A model generated the notes under the pieces. The model saw only the letters and a program-made list of their open reading frames with translations. It was not told the DNA's origin and ran no database searches. From Odontesthes bonariensis (Eukaryota > Chordata > Actinopteri > Atheriniformes > Atherinopsidae): DNA of 64,000 bases. Where the stretch lies: assembly GCF_027942865.1 (NCBI RefSeq), contig NC_134510.1:26901209-26965208 (forward strand). Direction: 5' to 3'. Numbering within the stretch: position 1 is the first letter of the stretch; each line of letters begins with the position of its first letter. A program made the translations under genes and the position numbers. Positions 11,608 to 49,485 of the stretch are shown in pieces.

Positions 11608-14600
11608 ATGCTGTGTCCTGCCGCTGTCAGTGCAGCTGCTGCGGCTGTCTGGCTGCTGGCAGTGCTGGGCCCAGGCCTGTCTCTTCCAGCTGAGCTCAAC
11701 TCAGAGCCAGGCTTCACCCTCTGCAGCGACTGCTTCTACAAACAGATGCCTCCTCGGGGAGCCTCCGCAGGGCCGCTGCTGCGCCCACTCTGCCACAGAC
11801 TGCCCGGAGGACAGGCGTTTGCCACTCTGTCCAGGCCGACCTGTGACACAGCTGTCTACTCTGCCTTCCATCTCAGTCATGGATGGAGAGAGAGGGAGGA
11901 AGAGGAGGGGGGAGAGATTGTGGTAAGGACACATTTGTGACACTGTTTAAAGTAGTACTAATTTTGAAAGATCCACTCTGGGAAAAACCACAAAGACATG
12001 CCTAAAGTTACAGAATGTAAACAGAAGCTTTTTGTCAAAAGTAACGACATTGACTTAAGTGCTTAAGGTACATGAATTATATAAAATCACATTATTCCCT
12101 CTCCAGTGCACTTCAGAAGGAAACACTCTACTTTTAATCAAGCTACATTAATCTGATACCCAAAGTTACCGATGCCTTTTCAAATTCTGCATTGGAATAC
12201 AAATAATTTAACATATAGTATTGTTAAGATAGATGCTTAGCCGGTGGCTCCTCCAAATAAATGCAGTGTCCAGTAGGGGCCTGTGATGACCTTGCATCAT
12301 AGTAGCTTCACTGCTGTTTCAGGAGTCATTTCACCTCTAACATTTTCAGATGGTCACATTTAAATAACAGTTTGCTAAAAAATTGCTACAATTATCCAAC
12401 ATTTCACAATAAGCTAAAAGTAATATTCAGATTTGTGACTACCTATAAGTAAGTCACACAACTCCAGTTAAAAAAAACTGAACCGTCCCTTTAAGGCCTA
12501 CCTCTTGAAGGGTCCAGTCTGCTTTGATTGGTTAAAAGTCAGATGCTTAATGTTTGTTTGGAGATTTCATACTAGCTAATAGACAATCAAGATTATGCAA
12601 ATGTATTTATAGGGTGACAAAGATAAGCTGGGAAAGAAAAGTCTGGACAGCCGACAAAATATTTCAGGCATCTCAGGAACAGTATCTGCTGTTGGGAGGG
12701 AATAACTCCCATTGGTGTCAACTTTAGGTTTTCTAACTTTGCATGTATAAAAAGCTACTGTATTAAACAGTGAGGGATGAATAGGGGAAATCTCTGAAAA
12801 CATTTGATGTTATCTTAAACCGCTCATTTCTTCACAAAGCTATCAAACACTAATGCTGCATGAAGGGACAGGAATAATAATATGACTTTGGAAATATTGT
12901 TAAAATGTATTTATTCACATGTGAAAGTCTTAACTGGGGTAACAGGCATGCTAATATACATTAAACAGTTCATTTTACTATTTTGTCTGCCAGACAGAGG
13001 AAGAAGGGGCCAATGTGAAAGTCCCAGGACTTCTCAGAGAAGGCAGAGATCCATCTCATCCTGTCTCACCCACGGACTCCCCTCTTCATCACTGGGACTC
13101 AACAGTCACAGCACTGCTAAAGTCAAGCATAATTCCCCAATGCAGCACCTTAGAGGGCGATATCTACATCCTAACGGGGGCGGGAAGATTGGTGGCAGTT
13201 GAGGATGGAGACGAGGAGTGTCAGACGAAGCCGCTGTGGTCTGCAGTGTGCTGCGCTCTTGCAGAGGGGAAGGGGGGCTTCAGCATGGGGTTAATCAAAG
13301 AGGCAGGAGAAGGGGAGAGGCAAGTGAGCATGAAGGAGCTGGAGGAGATGCTCGGAGCGTCACAGCTGTTCTCTGAGGGCTGTGGAGGAGGAGAAGGGGA
13401 GACAGCTGCGATCAGAGTGAGTCTTCACAGTGAGGGGCTCCCTGGAAATACCAAAGAATTTGAGGCAGAGGCTGCAGACGTGGCTTCAGAAAGCACTGTT
13501 CCCGACGCATATGAAGCCATGACAGAGAAAAGAGAGGCGTCGACAGGCCATGAACAGGTGGCTGGTGTTGATGCTCAGGCAGAGGAGGCTGATGTTTCTG
13601 AACTTACACAAGAATCCATGGCAGATGAAGTGGCTTCACTGAGCAGCAGCGACAAGCAGCATTATGACCCAGTAACTGTTAGTGAAGAGGAGACCAATGC
13701 AAATTCCACCAGCTCTCTGGTCTTCATCCTGTCCACCATTTTGTCCATCCTCAAAGCTCCTCTGCGGCCTGTGTTCTCAACCATCACACAGTTACCTGGA
13801 CAGGTGAAACAACAGAATGAAACATTTCAACCTAATGTCATGTTGTTTAAACTCAAAGGGGCTCTCCAGCAATTTTGCATCACACTTTCATAAAGTCAAA
13901 ATAAGAGATTTAGAAAAAAGAAAAGAAAAATATTGCATCTTGATCTGACTTTTATGGTTAAAGACCTCATCTATAATGACATAATTGGTGTTAATTTAAA
14001 AGTCTTCAGAGATCCACAATTTATCCGGCGACACCTCCTCATCATGATGTATAAAGACAGATTTCTTCTGTTAAATGGACAGATTTCCCCTTTAATTTGA
14101 CCAGCCACAAGCAGTCCTTGGTCATTATAAAATTAAATAATAATAATGATAAATAAAACGAATTATAGAACGGTAACTACTTAATAGAGAGGGTAACAGC
14201 TAATTATAGAATGAGTAAAATGACAGAGTAACTCCAAAAGCAACTCCATTCATCTTGTCTCATTTCAGCCCTTGGTTAATAAAGATAGGCTATTCTTTTT
14301 AAGAGTTAACGTTGTTAGATTTAAATGTTGGTTTTGTGTCCTTAAGTAACATTTAAACCTGTCTAGGTTGAAAGTATTAAATAAATCTAATGAGCTGCTC
14401 CTCCTGTAGACTGTGTGTGGTCATAGGTTGACTCATCACTGGGTTAATTTTTAAAAATTCATCGTAAAACTGACACTCCTTTTCTCGATTCAGGTGACCT
14501 ACGTTCTTCAGGAGGATCTTGGAGTTCTCTCCACCCTACCTGGAGACACCTTCACCCTGCTCCACCTCCTCACCTCTGACCTCCTGTCCTGGGTGGGCTC

Positions 14601-15009
14601 AGGAGCAGAAATGCTGCTGGGTATTGGTGGGACATGCTTCTCCAACATTTACTTCTGCTCATCCTCAATGCTGGGTGCCCTGCTGAACAGCTGCCACACT
14701 GGATTTACAGGCATGGGCACCCTGGCAGGGGACACAATGGGGATATTTGGTGATGCGCTGGATAACACTTGGTCGGTGACAAAGTTCTTTGGAGGGCGGC
14801 TATATGAGCAGAGTGAGGGTTATGTGGGAACTGTGATGTCGGAGATGGGTGGTCAAGCACAAGCCGTAGGTGGAGGTTTGGGTAGGTTAGTTTGGAGAAG
14901 TGGAAGTGGAGTGGGCAATGGTTTCAGGTTTGGAGGGGGTTTAATAATGGGCATGGTAGATATGGTCATTGGTGCAGTCAGAGAGGCTTTTGGGCAGGAG
15001 TCAGAATGA
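11608..15009 (+). CDS. ENDOD1-like protein, catalytic segment apparently absent
   Basis: Three exons (11608-11922, 12994-13803, 14494-15009), all phase 0, encode 546 aa. The product has an N-terminal signal peptide (Ala/Leu-rich, residues 1-28). Next comes a stretch that fits the start of the ENDOD1-type DNA/RNA non-specific endonuclease domain: CFYKQMPPRG, then LCHRLPGGQAFATL and AVYSAFHL. Exon 2 resumes with the end of that domain (STLEGDIYILTGAG and PLWSAVCCAL). The 80 or so residues that should lie between, with the DRGH catalytic motif, are not there. An acidic Glu/Ser-rich spacer follows. From about residue 330 the rest is hydrophobic and Gly-rich with likely membrane-associating segments, as in ENDOD1. 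The start ATG follows ACCATC and opens the signal peptide. Family assignment rests on remembered fish ENDOD1-like sequences. The role is unknown; nuclease activity is unlikely. Confidence 0.72.
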
Positions 15010-30800: not shown

Positions 30801-33800
30801 TGAGCAACAATGTTTGCTGTTGTACCTCTTCTATCAACTTAGCCTGGCCTTGCTGCAGCATGGGTCTCATGGCTTTCTGCAGCAAACCCACAGAGCCGGG
30901 ATACAGCATCCTCCTCCCAAAGGAGTGGGCAATAAGAAAACTGCAGAGAGGAAGAAAAGGACGAGGTGGTCAGAACTGTAGGGGGATGACACTAATAATA
31001 ACACTTTATTTAAAAAAAGGAATGTTTGGAAGTGTACTTTGAAGGAGACTTTTTGCATCTCATTACTGTGACACCATTGAAAAAAGCAGCAGCTTGCACT
31101 CGTGCAGTTTTATATTTACCCGATGATGTGGCATGGTAACGTGCGCACAGAGTTGAGCACACTGTCTGCAGCTCCTCTCAGTTTGGGCTCTGGCTTCAGC
31201 AATGAAACGCCCGCCTTGGACAGTTTCCTATGTCACAGACAAACAGTGAAACAAAGTGAGCAGTTGATGCGTTTATTCTGCGTACTTCAAACTACCTTGT
31301 AAACATAAAGAAGTGACAGGAGTAGAACAGCAGTGAATGAATGGTTATTTAAAGCAGAAATGAGGAATAAGAGCAAAAACCTACGGACTGCTGACTTCCA
31401 TCCAATTAAAATCCGCAGGCCAATGTGAAAAATCAAAGTCATAGCCCCTCAGTTTTTTCTAAAAGGAAAGCATAAAAAAAACATTTAATGAAAATAATTA
31501 CTTTTCCAGATGATTTCTTAAGCATTATAGTGTAACCACAGATGCTGAGCACTTGCCCCAAGCCTCAATGATCTCACCTTGTTTGCTGGCATGTGATTCT
31601 TCTTAGTTTCCTCAAGAATTGAGATAAACTGCATATATTCGGAGTTCTTCCATCTTCCCCACCCTTGGGGGGAAAACAGAGAGGGGAAATAAGGCGGGAG
31701 GAATGCCAAGAGAGACAGATAAGTAGGGTCCATGTAAGGCAAAGAAAAAAAAAAAAAAACACTAAAATATATCTTGCTGCAAAGCCTCAAGGGAGTGTTT
31801 AGTATGCTTTGTGGATATAGACCCAGCTTAAAAGTCTGAATGGTTATGAAATCTTATTGGTGTGCAGCATGCTCAGTATTTGCTGTGATATCTAGAGATG
31901 AACGAACTGAGTTTGTTATTGCCTTGCTGTAGGTTAAAATCAGTAGTCTCACCTCTCAGACAGGCCACTCCAAGAAGACAAACAATCACGGTTCCCACAT
32001 ACTGACTCACTGGAACTAACTTACTGCTGCAAATATAGCCTGAAAACAAACAAACAAAAAAAAAACAACTCAGAATAACAGACACAGACACAGACGAGGC
32101 TAAATAACAGGCGAATAACCAATAAACAGATTCACATTCTGGCTGCTAGCGTGCAACCATGTGCAGAAATCAATTTCAGAAGCTCAATCATACATTAAAG
32201 AGTCACACACAACCTCAAGCAATTAATTTCTACTGATGCAGTCTTATTGGATGAATCAGCTGATTAAGTTCATATTAATTCCACTTGTAGGAGAACAGCA
32301 ATTTACAAGCACAACTCCATTCGATTAAAATTGTCACCCAGGAAATAAAGACATTTTCACGTTTCTCTTTCAAAACTCCCAATAAAACACACTAAGGTCA
32401 TGATTTAGGAGTAAAAAGGTACTAGACCAAGAGGAGAAACATGTCCTGAGAGTGTTGTAGCCATTTGCTCCTCTAACAAAGTGGAGGGGGGTATAGAACA
32501 GGGCATTAAAGGAGAACTGCGGTATTTTCAACATTAAGCCTCTTTTATGAGTCGTCTGCAATGTTTTAGAACCCCCCCTCACCGCTTTTTTGATGTTTAC
32601 TGCTGTCTCCGGTATTTGCCTAATTTTGATTCTTCTCAACCTGCTTCAGAATGGCAAGTCATGTGCATGTCCCAAAAGGTCCGTAACAGCACCATAAACA
32701 TCCGTTTTCAAAATCATCAACTCACTGGAGTGGTTACTGGTGTGCACTGGTAATCCATATCAAATTTCGTTGTGAAAAGTTGCTTCTGTCGTGTTTTATT
32801 TGACATTTTGTACTGGATGTTTGTTGATATTACTCCGCCACCGCTAAGAAAATAGTGCGAGCATGAACGAGCTGCCAAATAAAACACGTCAGAAGCAACT
32901 TTTCGCAACGAAATTTGATATGGATTACCAGTGCACACCCGTAACCACTCCAGTGAGTTGATGATTTTGAAAACGGACGTTTATGGTGCTTTTACGGACC
33001 TTTTTGGACATGCACATGACTTGCCATTCTGAAGCAGGTTGAGAAGAATCAAAATTAGGCAAAAACAGCAGTAAACATCAAAAAAGCGGTGAGGGGGGTT
33101 CTAAAACATTGCAGACGACTCATAAAAGAGGCTTAATGTTGAAAATACCGCAGTTATCCTTTAATATAACCTTGTTATGTACAAATAATGCTAACACAAA
33201 ATCACACATAATAATCAAGCAGCTAAAAAGTATTTCATCAAACAAAATTATTTATCACACCTCTCTCAGACTTAGCATGGAATTTTGTGAAGATATAACA
33301 TAACTAAGACATTATATGATTGACATTTAATCACTGAGCCCCATGACTGGCTCCTTTTATAAAAAAAACACATCTCCCTGTTCTGAACATAAACTAAAAT
33401 GACTATTTGAGATAAACGAGGCTTCAAATTCATTATTACTTCAATTCTTTTCCCAAAGTCGAGGTAAACTCTCGACACCATTCGTTTACCAGCAACATTT
33501 TGAAGAACCTATCAAGTCAAATTTCATAAAGCTTGTTAAAGAGAAGACAAATAGAGACAAATATATGACTGTTTTCCTCTGTTAAAGAGCTTATATAAGA
33601 GCAACTGGACTTCTTTTCTTGGTCCCAGTTGCCCTTATTCAAGCTCTTATGACTACCTTGGCCTGGATGACAGAGACTCTACACCAACATGAACTAAGTG
33701 GTATACTAAGTGGTATAATACAGAAAATGAGGAAATTCTCAAAGTATAGACTTTTTTTTTTCTTTACAGTCATCTTGCTCATTTATTTTCAGGTGCAGTT

Positions 33801-34779
33801 TTCTAGCTGTGAACTGACTGATATTCCTGACAGTTTCAGCTTTGCGTCAGTTTAAAGTGGTGCTGAGATGGGCCTGCCACTGTTTTTGCACACCAAATGT
33901 ACAGCACACAGCCTACCTTTCCTGTAAAGATAGCAGAGGAGAAGAGGGGAGCTGTAGTAAGACAAGGACCACAGTGTCGAAGCCTGGGGGGAGAAAATAG
34001 ACACTTTAATCAAATAAGTCCCCTGCTTCTTTGAACATGATAACACAAAATGCAATACTGACCCAACCAAGAATGCTGCCAGTGTGCTTTTCCAGACTCC
34101 TGGGTTGGTAGTTCCATCCCTGGCGGCACAAATGGAGAAATATTGTTCACATGAAGAGCACTGCGGCTAACGTGTTTATCTGAACAAGTTTAGCTAACAT
34201 TAGCTTAGCTGATAGCACCGTCATCTAAAAAGATTGGGTCATACACAAACAGATCGTGTTCTGACGAAACACAGATTCTCAGCAGCTGGGTTTCACTTGA
34301 AAGGGTTTATAGTCATTATTCGTTTCTGTTCGTTTCCATTCGTTTTGCTTCTTCAAAGTTTTATCTCAACTGTTAGCAACATTACGCAGAACCGGTTTTA
34401 AAAAATGAAAAAACAACAAGCCATAGTACCAACAGTTAGACTGACAAACAGTTAAGACTTGTTGTTGTAGCGACGAGATAGAAAACACGAAAAGACACAG
34501 CCAAGCGTGTCGTTGTATGCCTGCCTGTCATTTCATTCAACCACTGACTAATTTCGGGCTATGCAGTGCAGTGACAGCAGCAGAGCTTCAATAACAGACA
34601 ACTAACACATCAATTACATGAAATTTCGCCCAGCTTTGGCATTCGGTGGTTCTTTGAAATCAACTACACATCCCTACCCTCCTGCCCGACCTGCCCTCGG
34701 GTCGAGACTGGTCCGGTGAACGGTGAATTCGCTGCAGATGAGGCCCTACAACACAGCGGAGCCACATCCAGACGGCCAT
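27892..34779 (-). CDS. abhd16a: Phosphatidylserine lipase ABHD16A (BAT5)
   Basis: 20 exons, 1632 nt, 543 aa (human 558): 34678-34779, 34063-34119, 33917-33983, 31953-32039, 31578-31663, 31385-31458, 31120-31227, 30826-30940, 30630-30731, 30465-30528, 30286-30335, 29893-30016, 29710-29814, 29563-29626, 29366-29422, 29046-29108, 28894-28970, 28707-28805, 28554-28600, 27892-27975. This is a membrane serine hydrolase of the ER that converts phosphatidylserine to lyso-phosphatidylserine. Two N-terminal hydrophobic segments (about residues 55-75 and 85-105) anchor it. The nucleophile elbow is AWSIGG with Ser340, and the acid is Asp415 in RRTRDE. The third reported residue, human His507, aligns with Arg here. 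The start MAVWMWLRCVVGP matches the CVLGP start of the human protein. The intron after exon 28894-28970 has a GC donor. Confidence 0.96.
32506..33164. mobile_element. Foldback element with ~300-bp inverted arms
   Basis: The left arm starts TTAAAGGAGAACTGCGGTAT; the right arm ends with its near-perfect complement, CCGCAGTTATCCTTTAA. The arms stay complementary to a loop of about 70 bp around 32800-32870. The element is non-coding and lies in abhd16a intron 3. Confidence 0.9.
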
Positions 34780-35385: not shown

Positions 35386-38300
35386 TCAGCCCTGACACTG
35401 CTCGTATCTGGAAACAGAGCACAGAGCTAAACTCACTCAAAAATCTCCCGTGCCTCAGTCTCTTTCATTCTCCCTTAAACACAAACACAGGCAGCCCACG
35501 CAGCAACAACAACACACAGGTGAAGGAGCGCTGCCTGTCAGCGCATGGCGTGCTTTGATGCCACAGTGTCACAGTGATGTTCAGACCAATGTGACTGGTG
35601 AGTGTGAGAATAATGTGAGGGGCAGATAAGTGACACTGCAAACATACATGCACACATACAGCTCCATGTATAAAAGCACAAACAGGTGATGCACAACTTT
35701 TTGCTTACCGCTCCAGTTCCTTATAGACATCATCCTCTCCTCTTGGCTTCAAATCCTGGCATAAAGAAGGAAACAGGGAAGGGAGGTGCAGGAAGATGGT
35801 GTGGGACAGTTAAGAGAAGGATAAAGAGAGGTACTGAGGTCAGATTTATGTCCCTCTAGTGTGTAATGAGATTGATTTGTTAATACCACTAATGTAAGGG
35901 TGACTGCTGATAGGCAATGTGTTTATCTGAGAGAGGGCTGATAGATTGGAGGAGAGGACTGCAAGTGTGAAGGAAGACATATCTCCCGACAGCTCAGGGA
36001 GGAGGCAAAAGAGAAAATTAGACTTTGTATGCACTGGTGGATGTGTGTATTACAGCTCCTCATGCAGACACATATGCAAAATGTCTGTGTGCAGGAGCTG
36101 ACACAATAACTCACCATGTAGACTGAACCCTGGGGAGGAGCCTGTTGGGAAGAGTGGAGAAAACAGGTTTAATGAACAATAAGTGGCAGAGAGGGAGGGA
36201 CACTTGAAAAAAGGAAAAATAGAAACAGAGGAGAGAAGCAAAATGTAAAAAAAAAAAAAGAAAAAAAAGCACAACAGAGTCAGTAAAGGGGAAAGTGGAA
36301 TGAGTGGGAAAGGGCAAAAAGAGGAGGGAAATTCATTAAAGGACATTTAGTTATTGAGGAATTTATCACCTGTCTGATATCCTCAGGATTCTCATAGATG
36401 TTCTCTGTTTCACCCGAATGGACAGACAGAGACTGCTCAATACCTATGTACAGAGAGATAGAGTCTCACAGACAAATGCACACACACTTATCTGCTGAGG
36501 GAGGAAGGAGGAGGGGGCAGATTCATTACAACAACCCCAGAGGATGTCACGGCCAACATCACTCAGTGGCAGCCGACAGGGGCCGAAGATGGACGGAACA
36601 CGGAGAGATGTCAAAAAAGAAATCGCCGGAAGACTCACCGCGATCAGAAATGTGTTTCTGTCTCCATAGCAACACAGCGACAGCTGCAGCAACCAGGGGC
36701 ACCAGGAGTAATAAAGCAGAGAGAGAAGGGAGTGGCGAGGGGGTGGGACTGTCATCATCTACAAAAGGAAAAAAGTGGGAGAGGACAAAAGCATGAACAT
36801 TTCCAAGAACTGTGCTTAAATAAAACTCATAGTGTGTGTGGTTGAATAACATGAAGGCTGTTCAGGAACTTTTTCGAGTTTGTTCTCCAGTTTGCTCCTC
36901 AGTTCAGGTCAAGACGTTCCGCTTTTTCTACTGAACCCTTCAAAATGTATTGCAAGGCATGTTGCAGTTGCAGTTTCTTCAACATATTACATGCTTTTGC
37001 ATCATACAGCCTTCAGTCACAGAAAATGGGTACAGTGGAAGATAGAGAGGAAATCCAGCCTTTCTCAGGCAGAGTGAATAGCCTGTGGAAACACTGAGTA
37101 GGTTTGATCTGACACATCTTCAGTCTGGACTGTAAAGCCTGTCAATTTGAAACTTGGATGAGAGGAAGAATTTAATAGGTATCATGGACACCAAATATGG
37201 TATGATCATTGCACAAAACCTAAGCTGATGCCACTTCTTTACATATTAGATTTGAAAATGATAATCGTTCCATGACTCATTTTCAAAACATGTTTAGTCC
37301 AGAGTGTTGAACCGCCTTTGTGCTCCCTTGACATCCGATTCCAGCTCCAAAATGCCTCAAGGTAAACTCTCACTGTAAACACATCTCTCCCTCAGCCAAA
37401 TCCAGTCGATGAAGTATTGAAAAACAGGTGTGATCAGAAGCGTATGTCTCATTTTCACATAAATTATTTAAGCACACCCTTCGCTCACTGCTGTGCCTTT
37501 CAAATTCGGTGGGAATCGCACACACATGTGATCAAACTTGTTGGCATAATGAGGATGATAGCAGTCTTGCAAAGCACAGCCACAGGGCATCAAGGGAGGC
37601 AGGAGGGAGGTACCCGAATAAGTGCTCTGTCTCTGTCTGCTCACAGAGCACAAAGGGCTCAGATCTGTCAGACATCTTTGGATTACACAGGAGAGGTATG
37701 ATTAACAGAAAATTACTGCTAAACAACACATTTCGACTTATCATATAACAATTGTCATTTCTCAACAATCCAGTCATTTTATTTCTAAGCCATTTAAGGA
37801 CAGACACCTTACAAAAGTCCCCTCTCTAATCAACTTTCCACAAATTTTGTTTGAAAAAGGATTGACCCTCAGGTCTCACCTTAGCCCTGGAGTCACAGCT
37901 TTTACGCAGATTCAGAATAATCAATCATTATTTGCTGTGTGAGGTGTAATTGATTGGTGAGTGTGTGTAGAGGTTGCTAATAGAATATTGTGGTGAGAGC
38001 TGACCCCAGAATGGCCCTGCACTGTTCTTCAGGCCAGTTTTTATGCATGGATTATGTTAATTGAGTGCAGCAAAGTGAGGCATAAATACCCCACTTTCTC
38101 AGTACCATATCTCCTCTTTCTCTCTGTCTATCTCCCTCCACGATTTGCTCCTCCTCCCCACCTCGTCTATTTCATCTCAAATGAGTGAGGGGGTGATTTA
38201 TATCATTGTTATTGTAGAGCAGGGTGGCATACAGGAGGCAGACCAAAGAACTGCTTGAATGCTTTGCAAAGGATGGGCAAACCGAGGATAGCACATGACT

Positions 38301-41300
38301 GCAGAAAATCCCTGACATTTGAAGTGTTTTGTGTGCTGCTGAGCACAATGATTGCTTCAATTTTGCATTCTTTGTTCTGTGCCATCAGTAAAAGAAATTC
38401 TATTAAGCAGCGTTGTTTTAACTTCTGCAACTTGGGCTCGACTGTGAGATTTGTCTTACAGAGCGTTTGATATCCCAAAATGATAGACATGATTTATGGT
38501 TTCTGTTATTTGGCTTCATCAAAACTAATTTCTGCTCTCTTCCTGTGATAATCATGAAAAAAATAAAATAAAATCCCACCATCTCTGGAGAGCTTCCAGA
38601 AAAAATATTTCTAAACTGTCACTGCTTATTGTTCAATTTTTCATTACTAACCATGATTTTTATTTTGGCGTAATACGGCACATCTGCAGCGTTTGTGCAT
38701 CCTGACACTTTCCAACAGTGTTATGTAGGTCATCTTGCACTCACATTAATTGAACCTCCTACTCTGCTCAGTCTAAATTGTGCTGGAAATGTGCAACACT
38801 TGAAAATCACATGAAACACAACACATATATATTGGACCTGATCCAGCCTCTCGTAATCTTTATTTTTTACTCTCTCTCTCTTTCCTTTCCGTTTATTATT
38901 CTTATAGCTCTACCATGAATGGGCACCATGATTGACTCTGGGCCCCTCAGCTGGAGCGATAGGTTAGGGTATGGGGGGTAAACTCATTTCTGATCCATTC
39001 AACTGTCACAACCTGCTGTGCTCCCCCCTTAGCTATCAATACAATAAGCTTGAATAATTTAGTTTTTCTTAGGAGAGATGTCCTACGGTCCTCTTCTCTT
39101 ATATTCACATATTAGCTGGGTGAGGGTGATGAGAAAAATGGGAGCCTTTATATTAGGAGAGACTGTGCGTATCAGGACTGTGTGGGATTTTTATGAAAAT
39201 TTGGCACGTAAATGGAATGAGTTAAGCTGCTGGATATTATCAGAAGTTGTAACCTGTGACCCCCTGAGCTACATCACGTAAGTATAACATATGGTATCTG
39301 TCAGGGGCTTTCTCCTTTATGAACCACAGGATTTCTGGCAGATGAACTGACCTGAGATTGGCTTTAATACACCAGAGAACGCTTCATGGACCGCACATCC
39401 GTGAATTATCCATACTCACGGTTCATTATTTCCACCAAGTTGGCAGGAAGTCTGCCAAGAATACAGTGCTACTAATAGAATATTCTTGGTGTACCCACAA
39501 AAAAGAAAGAAAAAAAAAAAGATGCAGCTGCTCCCACCTTTAGGGGGCAGTGTGACAGCTTGATCTGCCCAGATGACCTGGCCATTTTTCAGCTGCAGGG
39601 TGCAGGTGTAGTTCCCTGTTACATTGGAGGTGATGGGTAATGGCAGAATGATGCTGATGCTGCCAGGGAAGGCGCTTGACATCTTCAGCTCGTGGCTCTT
39701 ACTGTGGTGTTTCCACTCGGCACTTTGAACCTGGGACCGCTCTGAATACTGGCACACCAACTCCAGCTTTGAGGGATAACGTTTAGTTTTAACTGTGGAA
39801 GTGAGAAAAGGAGGGGAAAATTTTAAAGGGCGATCAAACAAATGAAGAAAACCACGAAGAGGGATGACTTAGAGAAAAAGACAGTGAAGAGGAATGAAAA
39901 AGTGAGTTAAAGGGTAGTGTGTGAATACAGAAAAGGGCAAGGACAGATAGAGAGTAATGAGGTAAAGGGAAAGTGATATGAAAAACAAAGAACAATTCAG
40001 AGAAGGGTCAAAATAATATATATTCATTAAAGTGATTTGCTGCTAATGCATTGGTTGACTGTGACTGATGCTTGGTGTCTCATCAAACTGTAATGAGAAT
40101 CCATCTGGGTGTAATCAAGCTCCGCAGATCCACACCACACACACATGCAAAAAAAAAAAAAAACCCACTCACATTTCAGTCTTGATTAGTGTGATCAGCG
40201 TGGGCCACCCACAGCCTTGGTGGGAGGGCAGCAGGTATAATCAAACATAATGGTACTTATAATGAGGTGGGGTAAAAATATAAGCGTCATATGATTGGTA
40301 AGTGGGTGGATGTGTGTGAGTGTGTGTAATGGATGCAGATGTGTGAAGCAGGGTGACAGTGACAGTGACAGATCGACCGGTCATGTCTGGGCAGCTGTGA
40401 TGGATGCCAGTGGGACTGTGATTAGGAAAGCCTTCCAAGGCCACCATGACAGGCCTTTGAGTGTGTGTGTGTGTATATACTGGCATTTATGTGCGTGGAT
40501 GCTAAGGATGTGAGTGCCTCTGAAAGGGTGAAAACTCCCCAAGGCACACTCGTAAAAATCAACAGGTGCTCAGCTCAAATTTTTCTCTTTAGTTTTATGA
40601 ATCAAGTAAATGTTCTCTTTCAGGAGCAATATAGTAAATGTATTCATTTAATAATGTGACATTTTACCAATGGCTGTAGGAAATGTCCTCTTCATTTATT
40701 CTGCTCAGTCACAGTGGGTGAACAATGCACTGAGGCTGGTGAGAGTTTAATGTCTCATGTCAGGACAGCAGGGTAAAATAAAGTACCTCACGAGACGCGG
40801 ATGCTCAGATTATGGCAAGTCTCTCTAAACTGTGACTCGCATTACTCCTGTGGTTATTTTTCAATTTTCTTGCGCATAATTTATTCTAATGGATTAGATT
40901 CACATTTTAGAAAACACGTATTTTCCACCTTCTTGCAGTAAGTTAACCTGCTATGACCTGAACATCGTTTTGCCTTGGAGCCTGGAGCGACGCACATGTC
41001 GCATCAACATTTTCACGACACACTATTATTATATATTTAAAATTTTTTTTGATAAACATGAAGACAAAATGAGTAAATTACGATAAAAACTGAAGGTTCA
41101 ACCTCTCGAGTGGTTTTTATTTCACGTTTCTTTTTAAGATTCATGTTTGCAGAAAACTCTCAGGTTTTAGATGGCTGGTTTAGATTAAGCCATAGGTTTA
41201 AAAGGCTTTATTGAGGGGAACAGCACCACTCTGATGTGCACTATGTAATGACCTGGAGCAAGAAAGTGGTTACGTTAGGTTAGCTTAGCATAAAAACTTG

Positions 41301-44300
41301 AAGTGGACAAAAAAAAATCCAGCTTGGCTAATATGAAAATGTCCAAAGTTTAATAATCAGTACATTGCATTTATTTTGTTAGAAAAAAACCCAACTAATC
41401 ATAGTCTTTAAAAGTGTACTTTCATGGAAAATGAGAAGATGCTTTTTCACAGAAAAAGCAGTTCAAATGCTGATTACAGAATTATGCCAGCTTAATCATC
41501 TTGGCCGAACTTGAGTATGCTGAGTGTCCTGAAATAACAGTTGCGATCAAATTTGAAGCTTCAGTTACTACATAAAGAAATTGGAAATGTTGTTATCCTA
41601 TTGAATCATATGAAAAACATTTGAAGTGGGATATTTCAACAGAAACATTAAATTGAAGCATCATTATCTGATATCAAAGTGAGAAACCATGTTGTATTCT
41701 GAAACAGAGACAGCTAGAGTTTGGAATCTGAAGAGCTGAGGAGTGAAATGTGTGAATGAAAAGCATGTAAAACAATGGCATTGCTGAAGAGGCGAAAAGA
41801 CTGATATGTGAAGCATACGAGTTTGAACTGATGTGAGCTGATTTGTGTATGTGTGTTTTTCTTTGTGTGGATAGGATTGTGTGTGTGTTTGTGATCTTTT
41901 AATGTTATGCTTGGTTTTCTGCTTGGTCCATATGTTATTGGACAACAATGTGAAAGTCAGTGTGCTTAAAGGGATACTTTGCATCTTTTGACATGAAGCT
42001 GTATGACATCCCATACTAGCAATATCATTTATGAATATTTTCTTACCCCCTGCCCCTGTTGGCAGCACACAGTGATACGAAGGGAGAGAAAATAGCGCCC
42101 AGCGATTGTGAGGTCTGACTTTTTCCCGGACAACGATTTTGTGATGCAAATGTATTACTCTTTTGAACACATATTGTTTTGAGAAGCGAAACGCTTTATT
42201 TTTGTAGCCCCAGCCAACTAGCCGGACTGCTTTTGTCAACACCAAAATGAGGCCGGAACTCGGCTCACAGTACGCAGCAGGGGGTAAGAAAATATTCATA
42301 AATGATATTGCTAGTATGGGATGTCATAAAGCTTCATGTCAAAAGAGGCGAACTATCCCTTTAGCTCAAAAAATCTCCTGAAACTTGCTATAATCAAAAT
42401 CAGTACAAGAACTGAAAATGTCAGCAACTTTAATGATGTTATGAGAACAGACATGTTTGAGCCTTTGGCCTTTCTACTATATACACCATATGTGCTGCCA
42501 TGCATGGCCCGTGTGTGTGTGTGTGTGGCGTGTCCCTGAGTGTGTGTGCGCTTGTGTATTTGTGTGTTTCTATGTGTCATAGTACAAATAAACTGAGTTA
42601 GAGTTCACTATCTGAAAATACTGACAATAACTAACTGTGTAGTGATAGTATTTCCAGTGAGATTATTATAAATGGGTCTTAATTGGATTGGTTTTCAATG
42701 TACTGCAGCAAAATGTGTTGTAGCAGAGGTTTTAAATGTCATTAAAGTGTTTTAAAACATAACGCAGTTTGATGTACGAGAGGCTGTTTAATATAAACCT
42801 TATTTTGCATTTCCAATGTGTGTGCCAGTTGTTGCCAAGGTGATGGTAAGTGTAATCTTAAATCTGAAACAAAACAATGCTCTCAAACTTCTTCAATTTA
42901 GGGAAAATCTATTACTCTTACTGTTTGCCACCGTAGGAACAGCAACGCATTGCTGAACACAGCGGTGTGTGGTTTGTGTTTCTTGACATGAGTGTGAGTT
43001 TGAAATACCAAACAGAAACAGGGACTTCTGCTTGTTTTTTTCTGCAACAATTCTGCTCTGAGTTTGAATTTATTTCAACTGGGCAATTGGGTGGTACTTC
43101 TGTGATTCAAAGGCTTCAAGGACAAGAAGTCCAATAGCTATGAAAATAAATTTTTTAAAGGAGAGGACCAATTTTCCTACGTTGTGGTGGTAAAATGATG
43201 CCTGTAGCGTAAAACCTTGGACAGATTAAAGAGAATTTTCTCTGCTGAATTTGTTCAATCCCCTGCTCCATTGTCACTTAACAGCTCCTCTTTAGCTCCG
43301 AAAAATCCGGGCTGCACCACCCATTCCGACATCCCACCATTCTGACAAGCAAACGTTCCACAATTCTTGATAAGGCTTTCCATATAAGGAAATGTGCGTT
43401 ACTCAACAGATAACAGTCCCTTCTTTCTGTTCATGCATTTTACATGTTTTAAGACATGTGTACAGATGTGATACAGTCTTTAAAAGCGGAATTAAAGCCT
43501 CTCCCCCTCTCTGTCTGCCTGTTATTCTTCAACGCTTGTGATGTTTGAATGATATTAAATTGATACTGAATGATGACTTAAGGGTCAAATCTACAGTCAG
43601 AGGGGAGGATCAGGTGGATGTGGGCTTATTTCGGATCTGAGTCCAGACTCAGGATCCATCCACCGGATACCGTCAGATCCTGACAATGTCATGAGTCCGT
43701 GGTAATTTTCAAAACGCACTCCAAGAGCAAATTAATGATATTCAAATAGTTTATTACACACGTTTTGGGAAGCTTAATATATGAAATTGGTATCATTTGC
43801 AGCACAGGGACGTCCGACACAGGTGAGCTGTCATTGTTGTTTGTAATTGCAATTATTAATGTTGCATATGATGCCAGCGAACTCCCAGCTGGCAGCTTTC
43901 TGTGTGGAGTTTGCATGTTCTCCTTGTGTATGCGTGGGTTCTCTCCGGGTACTCCGGCTTCCTCCCACTGTCCAAAAACATGCATGTTAAGTTAATTGGT
44001 GTCTCTAAAAATTACCCTTAGGAGTGAGTGTGAGCGTGTATGGTTGTTTGTCTCGTTTGTCTCTGTGTGGCCCTGTGATGGACTGGTGGCCTGTCCAGGG
44101 TGTACCCCGCCTCTCGCCCATTGACCGCTGGGATAGGCTCCAGCCCCCCTGCGACCCGACCGACGGATTCAGCGGTATAGAAAATGGATGGATGGATGAT
44201 GCCAGCGTGCAAAAGACGCATGGACTCTGATCCAGCTGGCTGCTGTGACAGGTCACTGACACTGTATTTCTGCTTAATCCAACATGTTTCAGACTTGCCC

Positions 44301-44395
44301 GATTTACATTAATACCTGTATTTTGATGTTTGAAATTTCAGGGGATTTTGATAATAATTTATTATAGTTGGTTTTCCAGGTTGTGGCGTTCCTCT

Positions 44396-44426
<31 letters not shown>

Positions 44427-47400
44427 GGGCTTTAATAGGCTATTAAAGGAATTGTCAGAATGGCTGGATGTTTAAAAAAAATTAAATATTTTGGAATGGT
44501 GGAAAACCTTTCATAAACTCTGAACTTTGCTAAATGAGTGTGATTTCATCCAAACTGTTGAAAATATCAAAAAGAAGCCAAATGTACATTTTAAAAGTTT
44601 GATTGGTGACTCTAACAAAGTATGTGGCAGGAGGAACATTTTGTAGTTGAATTATGTTTGAAAAAGGATTTAAACATTATGTCTTTTAGGTAAAATGCAA
44701 AGAAGTGAGAAAAGAGGATCTCAGCAGTGTGAATGCTGATCAGCATCCACACTGCTGAGCGTTATATGCGTTAGCTATATTTTAGAGGACAATATCACAG
44801 TGCATTATCTTCAAGGAGTCACAGCGAGGTTGTCACATAATCACCAAAGATGCAGTGCAGAGAGAGGCTGGGGACTTTTTAGGACCATCTAAAGCGTTAT
44901 TCTGGTCTAAAATTGCCCCTTGAATAGTCTAATCCACATAAGCCAGTTTCTTATAAATTAAAACAAGTTTAAGACTTATTTGTATCAAGTGCTGTTTTTT
45001 TTTTTTAGGTCACATCTCTGAGGAAGCAATGAGAGGGGAAGTTACTTGTTAGAAACTGACTGTGGTTGCATTTTCTATTTATTTTTTGTACAATCTGCTT
45101 AATTTTTCTGGAACTTAGTCTTGTTGACCTTTTAAGAGACCACAGACAACTGTGGGCGTTCTTGTGACATGTCTAAGCGCTTGCTTTATCCCGCACGAGT
45201 TTGTGCTTCACCGACTGACAAATCATTGTTTTCTCACTTAGCATTGCTTTTGACACAGAAGTTTCATGTTTTCTTTCTTACTGTCTAATTAGGTTTAGTT
45301 AACACAATTACTTGTTTGAACATTGACATTATACATCCATATCCTTAGTTTCTAGAAATAACAAATTAACTTTTTACTGTATCTATATGAAAGTTTCTTC
45401 ATTTCTCTATATATTTTTTTTTCATTTATTTATTTAATCAATATTATCTGAAAGGCATTCCCAGGGGCAGGCATTGTTAAATATCAGCTACACCAACGTC
45501 AGCTGTATCAACCACAAGTGCTGAGATGTGTTGCATTGGATAACTGTTACTCAGTGCTCCAAGTTAAAGCATTGCAACCTATTAGATAAACAATAAGAAA
45601 CATGAAATATTAAAGTGGTAAAATAACTATTAATTGTCAATAAACTGTTATTTTCTTCAGGTTAGGCTACATTGAATGGAGCGTTCTGCTGCAGTCGTCT
45701 GGTTAGACAGGCTTTCTGGTTTGAAAACAAAATGGTTGATTTCGCCATGGATTAATAGTAAATTAGTTTTACTTAAAGTAGTCAAGAGCTAAACAATTTG
45801 AATATGCAAATTATGTGAGTGATTAATATGTCATGGCCTTTAGAGGGTTTCAAATCAACTGAACACCTGCTGCATACTTCATGATTTAAAAAAAAAGGCA
45901 AATTAACAGCTATGCTTTGGAATAATGTCATTTCATTCCTCCAGCAGATATAAAAAGTAGAATTGATAAATCGAAGAGCATCAAAACTTCATACTGATTT
46001 TCCCTTTTATCATATGTCTTTTGGGTAACAGCCTCCTCCACATTATGTAATACAAAAATAGATACGATTAAACCAACACTTTTTATATAAATCCATCCCT
46101 CTTAATCCACCTCCTACCAATACTTCTGCCTCTCGACCCTCATCTCTACCTTTCAGCACGCTGAGTGTTGTCCTCTGGCTGAAGACGTTGTCATTGAGAC
46201 ACACTTCACAGGCGTAGACGCCACCATCTTTCAACTCAGGGGTTAGCAGGAAGGAGAAGCTCCCAGCCTCTGCATTGTAGGGCGGGCCAGCCAACTGGAG
46301 TCTCTTGCTTTGCTCACTCTGTAAGGTGGAACCCCTCCAGCGGTCGTACTGGTGCACTAACTTCATATTACTCCCCTTCCTGACATCTGGGGGAAGCCAG
46401 AATAGTAGGACATAGTCGCCCTGGACATTGGGACAGGTCAGGAGGAAGGATGTCTGAGCTGGAATGGCAGTTGAGATCGTTGAGCCTGCAGGCATGAACA
46501 GAGGAAAACAGATATGAAGTTATTACAATGCAAGAAGACATACTGACAGGGAATTCTAGGCATAAAGAGGGTCAATGAAGAGTGAGCTTAAGACAGGAAC
46601 TAAACAGAAGCAATAGTGTAACGAAATGGGAGACAGGAGGAAATATTCCTACAACAATGGGGATAAGTTTTTATATGCTGAGTCACATTTTACCTTCTGC
46701 TCTGCCTGATCAGCAAGCTGCTGACACAGAAGTCTTAGACTGCTTGTATTAGAGTTACTTACCATGTGTTACATTAGTGAATGAGGCCACTTTGTCAGCT
46801 GTGGAAAGAAGAGAAGCAAAAAGGGAATGGGGGCAAAAAGCATATTATGAATAATACATAAATGTAGCAACTGTAATATTCACAGGAGGACAAGCAGACT
46901 TTTAGTGCAGATCTACAGTGTGCTTTTGAATCTGAAAACTGGTTTATAAAAGTAAATACTTTGAAGAACTGTAACCATAGGACTCCTGAATAAATAATGC
47001 TGCCGCTGAGTTTCTGGCTTTGATGGCCGCTCATAACATCAATAAAAGCAACAACAAATCTATTCTGTTCCTCAGTGCTTCTGCATATTTCCTCCTACTG
47101 TCAGTCTCACCGTCAACAGTCACTTCCACGTTTGTAGCCAAGACACTCGTGCTGTTACCCCAGGGGTAAACCGTACAGATATAGACCCCGCTATCACTGT
47201 TCTGGACCTGCGGTAGTTTAGCGACTGTGCCTGAGTTTGTCTTTTTCTCACTCTTCATGGGAATGCCGCCAGGTGCTGTCCACGTGATTTTGGTGATTGG
47301 ATTGTTAGGAGTAACTTTAGCAATCAGTCGCAAGCTGCTGTGCTGAGGGACGGGTGCAGCGGGGTAGATTTTGACTGGAGGTGAAGAAGGATAAACGAAG

Positions 47401-49485
47401 TCAGTAGCAGAATGAATATTTCAATATCAGTGTAAAATGACTAAACTCTAAGGAATGCATTTAATTTTATGGTCAAGTAAAAGTACATATGCATCATCAA
47501 AGATAAAAGATGTGTCGGATAAAAAAGAAAAAAAACATTCGATGGTTGCATTTTGTTCAGGTTTGGCTCAGTTAAAGTGGGTGGAAAATGTTTATATGCC
47601 AAGAGCTAATCTTAATAAAAAGTCGATGTTACATGAAAGTGAATTAGCAGTAAATATACAAGCACCCTGAAATGTTACAAAGGAGTACTGTTTGCCTACA
47701 TGTACATTTCAAATGAAGTATGCTTGTGCTAGAAATCATTTCTTGCAAAATCACACTTATATTGCATCAAGCAAATAATCAGTCAATAAATCATAAATCA
47801 TAAATTGTGTATATAAAGTGCCATCACATATGAATATGAGTGATCAAAAGTACTGAAGTAGAAGTACAAAAGTACCACCACTGATTGTATGGCAGGAAAA
47901 AGCTTCTGTATTTGATGGAGGCAGAGCTTAGTTAAATTCTTACATAAATATGCATAAAACAAGGGTTCAAAGTATAATATTTCTCTCTGAAGTTTTGTCA
48001 AGTAGAAGCTTGGAGCAGCAAAAACAGGAAAACCTGAATAAATGTGATGTATAATTACCATAAAATTGTACTCAAGCGCACAACTATACATGTGCTTGGT
48101 TAAGGAAAAACTTAATGAAGTGTGCTTGAGGTAAGGACTATTTATTATAGGTTCTCATTAAATCTGCAAAGCAAATAACAAGCTATTAGTTATGTAACAT
48201 TTTGTAAATGGAATACAAAATGGACAGAGTGAAAAGGGATTTGAAAGAAAAAAGAACAGTATGGAGGTTCAAAAGTACAAACACATGACTGAAATAAAAA
48301 TCTGCCCGTCCATCATCCTCTTAAGCTGTATTTGTTGTGTCTCGTGGTTGTTGTTCAGAGACACTCTCAGTGGATAGTTTCACTGAGCTAACCTAAAATG
48401 TGAGTTTAAGTGAATGTAATTTCACTGTTTTCTAAGCGGCAGATTCATTTTAGACATAAACGATCCTTCAAAAAGTTGAATAATTTTATACATCTTCAAA
48501 ATATCTATTGTTTTAAGGTGACAAATATTGTTCTAGAAGTGCTTGTATGCTTTATAAATCAGACCATCTCTGATGTATAAAATCTTTGGGTTTCTGTTGC
48601 TTGCAGCTGGTAAAGGTATTTCCACATGAAGCACAAACTGTTTTTCTTCTGTTCTCTTTTTTTTTTTTACCTGCAAGGACTGCTAAAAGAACAATCCTCT
48701 CCTTCACTTTTCTCTCATTTTGCTTTATTAAACAAGAGTAGAAACCATTGTCCTCCATTTTGGGGATGAAAAACAGAGAGAAATTCCCAGTGTCTTGAAA
48801 GTTACTGTCAGCCAATCGCATGGATGCCTTTGAGGCACTGCCAGAGAAGTTGTTCTTTTCACTGGCTGAGAGAACCAGTTTCCATTCATTGCCATGTAGC
48901 TTCTTCCAATTAATGGATATGTCACCTCTCATTGTTGTATCAGTACAGCCCAAAGTGGCAGGCGTGTTCTCCTCAACCACAACTGCATCATCCCAGCCTG
49001 AGGAAGAGAGGGTGGAAAGTTTGTCAGGGTGAAAGATGAATTCTTGGTGTGAGCCTGGAATGATGTCTTTACATTTTCAAAATTTGCAACAGTTTTGATG
49101 TCTGATTTTCATCCTGTGCTTCAGTTCTTTAAACACATTTTTCACATTTTTCACATTTTTCAACTTGGTCTTGGAATAATGCTCAGATACTTATTTTTCT
49201 GAAGACATTATGAACACAAATAACAAGTACAAGTTGTCCTTAACATAACACAATACAGGGAAATTTTATCAAATTGATCCACATGACTAAAGAACTTTCT
49301 TTATGCATAACTCATCATTTATGTGTATTAAGTGATGATACATAGATGTTTGTTGTTATAAAAGCAAGACGAGTTTTCGGTGTAGGAAAAATATGTTTAG
49401 AGAGAAGCATACCTTGCATGACAGTGTTGGAGGAATATACCACCACGGAAGAACCAAGAATGAAGGAGAGAAGAGCAGACTCCAT
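35386..49485 (-). CDS. Four-Ig-domain type I receptor with ITIM/ITAM-like tail
   Basis: Eleven exons join in frame to 526 aa: 49413-49485 (signal), 48671-48997 (D1), 47111-47374 (D2), 46763-46798 (hinge), 46150-46485 (D3), 39538-39792 (D4), 36639-36758 (membrane), 36370-36443, 36115-36141, 35709-35755 and 35386-35407. The extracellular and membrane exons are all phase 1, as is usual for Ig receptors. D1 and D3 look V-like (DNGFYSC, DGGVYAC), D2 and D4 C-like (DSGVYIC, GNYTC). D2 lacks the first Ig cysteine. The membrane helix is Leu/Val/Ala-rich (about residues 442-462). The tail has Tyr487 (IYENP, a Grb2-type YxN), Tyr503 (SVYMDL, ITIM-like) and Tyr515 (VYKEL); the last two form YxxL-x8-YxxL. 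The architecture recalls CD4/LAG3, but neither the Lck CxC nor the LAG3 KIEELE motif is present. It is inferred to be a leukocyte signalling receptor; I do not recognise the gene. Confidence 0.85.
41967..42363. mobile_element. Foldback/MITE element with ~80-bp inverted arms
   Basis: The left end is TAAAGGGATACTTTGCATCT; the right end is GGCGAACTATCCCTTTA. Inner parts such as CATCCCATACTAGCAATATC are repeated exactly in inverted order. GCT flanks both sides and may be a target duplication. It lies in the large intron between D3 and D4 of the receptor gene. Confidence 0.85.
43885..44200 (+). mobile_element. L2/Maui-type LINE 3' end
   Basis: A well-kept tail: TGTGTGGAGTTTGCATGTTC, CCGGCTTCCTCCCACTGTCC, GCTGGGATAGGCTCCAGCCC and AGAAAATGGATGGATGGATG at the end. 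Inserted in sense orientation relative to the window, antisense to the receptor gene. Confidence 0.85.
44396..44429. repeat. Poly(A) run joined to poly(G) run
   Basis: 23 A are followed directly by 11 G. Such junctions are unstable and error-prone in assembly. Confidence 0.85.

Follow-up and report, generated by a model that had tools for sequence, protein, structure and literature searches.

A four-immunoglobulin-domain receptor gene adjoining abhd16a in Odontesthes bonariensis is almost certainly teleost G6f-like

What is the receptor with four immunoglobulin (Ig) domains that lies beside abhd16a in the 64,000 nucleotides of Odontesthes bonariensis DNA analysed here (the window)? An initial annotation had called it unrecognised, and had suggested a fish-specific member of the CD4/LAG-3 group or an independent MHC-linked immune receptor. 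Another candidate is G6f-like (G6FL), a protein of teleost thrombocytes, and in the crucian carp of erythrocytes too, whose four Ig domains are accompanied by a transmembrane domain and by a tail that bears a YxN site for Grb2 as well as an ITAM (PMC3528668). The ITAM of G6FL is divided between two exons (Hughes et al. 2012, PMC3528668). The same paper names GU393012 as the zebrafish G6FL sequence, and it cites Ohashi et al. 2010 as the first description of G6f-like. In the excerpt of a review, LY6G6F is listed among the markers of fish thrombocytes (PMC8818700), and the excerpts of PMC4219347 and PMC6523485 (for G6F) and of PMC10845135 (for G6f-like) carry these names in their reference lists only. 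Here, we present evidence that the gene is almost certainly the O. bonariensis G6FL, predicted to encode a thrombocyte surface receptor with a collagen-sensing four-Ig ectodomain.

The gene model, drawn from the sequence alone, comprises 11 exons on the minus strand, from an ATG at 49485 to a stop at 35386, which join with the frame kept into 1581 coding bases (stop included) and a single intact protein of 526 amino acids. All 10 introns follow the GT-AG rule. The exon borders and the length agree with those of the initial annotation, whose description of an intact four-Ig receptor with a hinge was confirmed by the exon joining and, for the Ig domains, by Pfam. The protein has a leader and four Ig domains (D1 to D4), with a hinge of 12 aa encoded by an exon of its own between D2 and D3; a transmembrane stretch and a tail of 56 aa follow. 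The exons, and the neighbouring profile-matched exon, are as follows.

49413..49485, minus strand: exon 1, start codon and leader peptide (hydrophobic stretch at about residues 4-16)
48671..48997, minus strand: exon 2, Ig domain D1 (V-type), without an internal intron (V-set 3.1e-6)
47111..47374, minus strand: exon 3, Ig domain D2 (C-type), with a single cysteine ('ig' 4.2e-5)
46763..46798, minus strand: exon 4, 12-aa hinge at the D2-D3 junction (exon joining)
46150..46485, minus strand: exon 5, Ig domain D3 (V-type; V-set 0.0055, under cut-off)
39538..39792, minus strand: exon 6, Ig domain D4 (C-type; Ig_3 0.0051, under cut-off)
36639..36758, minus strand: exon 7, stalk and transmembrane segment (hydrophobic stretch at about 443-462)
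36370..36443, minus strand: exon 8, tail with the YxN site (Y487; motif as in PMC3528668)
36115..36141, minus strand: exon 9, start of the ITAM (Y503-M504; exon joining)
35709..35755, minus strand: exon 10, remainder of the ITAM (D505 to L518, including Y515; exon joining)
35386..35407, minus strand: exon 11, C-terminus and stop (exon joining)
31578..31724, minus strand: abhd16a, exon matching ABHD16_N (profile match over cut-off)

The longest intron of the gene (6.4 kb, 39793-46149) separates D3 from D4, the next longest being 2.8 kb. Three long frames within it and one upstream frame had no domain above cut-off in Pfam; a poxvirus model that scored 0.022 on one tested long frame, under cut-off, was treated as chance.

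When the joined protein was compared with Pfam, Ig_3 (5.6e-14) and V-set (6.2e-14) each matched over three stretches, well above chance. With exons taken singly, D1 and D2 passed the curated cut-off and D3 and D4 fell under it; the cysteine pair is retained in both D3 and D4. The V-C-V-C assignment proposed by the initial annotation is thus a fair one, which stands for D1 and D2 and is weakly supported for D3 and D4. The ectodomain has an unusual set of cysteines: D2 has one (C200) and D3 has three, the third being C329 in addition to C326, leaving two ectodomain cysteines without a canonical partner. It is unlikely, in our estimate, that the receptor in this lineage dimerises through disulphides or has an unusual bond between D2 and D3; if conserved, the odd cysteines could tune avidity for collagen.

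The cytoplasmic tail identifies the gene. It contains four tyrosines, at residues 487, 503, 515 and 521, and carries one ITAM, YMDL-x8-YKEL, at residues 503-518 (YMDLKPRGEDDVYKEL from 503), which the initial annotation had not named. A YxN site, YEN at 487, lies N-terminal of the ITAM, and the ITAM itself is spread over two exons, with the intron falling after residue 504. When the tail was shuffled 20000 times, an ITAM pattern arose 239 times, so that the pattern alone is suggestive and it is the residue-level match that carries the identity. That comparison covers the tail pieces of zebrafish G6FL deducible from primers printed in PMC3528668, and over these the window protein has the same residue at 32 of 39 positions. 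Furthermore, the tyrosines are spaced by 16 and 12 residues in both proteins (487/503/515 here and 499/515/527 in zebrafish). The tail identity and the equal tyrosine spacing are the grounds on which we assign the gene to G6FL.

The remaining anatomy is likewise that of teleost G6FL: four Ig domains, one transmembrane segment, and a short tail with a YxN site followed by an ITAM that is cut across two exons. The zebrafish protein is of similar length, 538 aa as deduced from Y527 and the reverse primer, compared with 526 here; its N-terminus, MRKNDQAF as read from a primer, differs from the leader of the O. bonariensis protein. The gene is intact and had been drawn correctly, but the receptor is an already known one, and the description 'unrecognised' does not hold.

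The order of the ectodomain domains invites a different reading, in which the gene is CD4 or LAG-3, or a fish-specific member of their group, and reads MHC class II on lymphocytes. The V-C2-V-C2 order and the hinge are shared with that group, as the initial annotation had pointed out. A search of the PDB with the protein placed contactin-5 first (5.2e-6, over D2) and CD4 next (7.1e-4 at best, co-linear over D1-D2), with LAG-3 weaker at 0.013 at best; D3 alone drew three chance-level matches (0.79 to 1.2), one of them a TCR alpha chain. These matches to CD4, LAG-3 and contactin-5 reflect a shared Ig layout. Ohashi 2010 reportedly compared G6F-like with CD4 and LAG-3, and it is said to resemble both in sequence.

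The marks by which CD4 and LAG-3 are recognised nevertheless argue against membership. As described in the excerpt of PMC10768021, these are an intron within D1 (in bony vertebrates of phase 1 in CD4 and phase 2 in LAG-3), WxC in the F strand of both D2 and D4, a CxC or CxH in the tail of CD4, and, for LAG-3, a tail on a single exon past the transmembrane exon that contains (F/Y)xxL(D/E). In the window gene D1 occupies one exon with no intron within, WxC is absent from the whole protein, CxC/H is absent from the tail, and the tail is encoded by four exons past the transmembrane exon and bears an ITAM. The LAG-3 pattern occurs once in the tail, as YKELE, which is the second half of the ITAM. 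Because the D1 intron, WxC, CxC/H and the single-exon tail are all missing, the gene is not filed under CD4/LAG-3, and we regard the CD4/LAG-3 reading, with its recognition of MHC class II, as highly improbable. The earlier remark that the tail motifs differ from those of CD4 and LAG-3 was therefore borne out, whereas the proposal of an immune receptor of that group fails, the tail being that of the G6f-like thrombocyte collagen receptor. A search of the whole genome with the CD4-extracel profile (PF09191) returned one match, at E 1.94 and under cut-off, at a locus with a transposon-like frame; neither CD4 nor LAG-3 of this fish was thereby located.

A whole-genome search with the window protein, which scores the best candidates only, gave 14 matches, of which eight are the gene's own exons and the other six lie elsewhere at E 0.2 to 6.11. 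None of the six was kept as a paralogue. Inspected by eye, two (L009 and L012) are what we take to be contactin-type Ig domains and two (L010 and L013) are presumably runs of siglec/CD22-type domains; those at 22.9 Mb on C6 and 0.9 Mb on C18 are low-complexity repeat. That the gene is present in a single copy is a strong conclusion, not an absolute one. The initial annotation had held that a one-to-one orthologue of a known adhesion receptor would speak against its reading; such a correspondence was found for the tail, together with a single copy by search.

An independent, undescribed MHC-linked receptor could in principle share nothing with G6FL except its tail, and the residue-level comparison with G6FL proteins indeed concerns tail pieces, not the ectodomain. 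We give this explanation scarcely any weight, as the extent of tail identity with zebrafish G6FL, the equal spacing and the equal exon split all stand against it, and the whole-genome search found no second candidate locus.

For G6FL, functional data come from zebrafish and trout (PMC3528668). Collagen drives an NFAT reporter in DT40 cells bearing zebrafish G6FL; both ITAM tyrosines are required for this signal, the YxN tyrosine is dispensable, and the Src inhibitor PP2 blocks it (PMC3528668). After morpholino knock-down in zebrafish, blood aggregates more slowly with collagen, occlusion of the vein is delayed, and that of the artery is prevented within the observed time (PMC3528668). We infer by orthology that the O. 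bonariensis protein would act as zebrafish G6FL does. Collagen at a wound would be sensed by the four-Ig ectodomain, leading to receptor clustering; Src-family kinases would then phosphorylate the ITAM tyrosines Y503 and Y515, and a Syk-type kinase would dock on the phosphorylated ITAM, with downstream signalling leading to thrombocyte activation. Y487 would be a Grb2-type site, of the kind dispensable for the zebrafish collagen signal. Collagen-related peptide is without effect on G6FL, so that G6FL and GPVI recognise different motifs in collagen, and other in vivo agonists were left possible by the authors (PMC3528668).

Mammalian G6f (LY6G6F), an MHC-encoded platelet protein, has the same YxN Grb2-binding site in its tail, but it possesses fewer Ig domains, has no ITAM, and is not a functional collagen receptor (PMC3528668). 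Orthology is therefore no guarantee of collagen as the ligand, and binding is not readable from sequence. GPVI with the FcR gamma-chain likewise links collagen, through an ITAM, to Src/Syk signalling in a clotting cell, but GPVI is the product of another gene, has two Ig domains, carries the ITAM on a separate chain, and recognises another collagen motif (PMC3528668). The likeness of G6FL and GPVI has been termed convergent evolution (PMC3528668).

The gene adds one more clean case to the known G6f-like genes, helpful for the annotation of fish genomes and usable as a thrombocyte marker, and it raises no new question of its own. It also shows G6f-like adjoining abhd16a in another fish. The neighbour, on the same strand, was named correctly by the initial annotation: among seven ABHD16_N matches in the genome only that at 31578-31724 is over cut-off, and a second ABHD16_N stretch of abhd16a, at 33894-33983, is just under it. 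In human, LY6G6F likewise adjoins ABHD16A.

Several other features lie in the window. On the plus strand a frame at 16496-17002 matches elongation factor 1-gamma (6.1e-9); from there to about 25500 the plus-strand frames resemble valyl-tRNA synthetase and are presumably vars1, a class III gene, of which a further exon gave no match. Human CSNK2B is a class III neighbour; two CK2-beta genes were found in this genome, on C23 and, at a distance of 5.4 Mb, on C6, the contig of the window. A search of the 64,000 nucleotides against Rfam gave no match. At 12955-15009 the plus strand holds a pair of long open frames, 312 and 184 aa in length, that resemble exons of a single conserved gene; neither matched Pfam at E values up to 0.01. 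Finally, a PRY-SPRY exon at 25-600 (SPRY 8e-22) and a coiled-coil-like frame at 1266-1610 without a Pfam match, both on the minus strand, probably belong to a TRIM-type gene.
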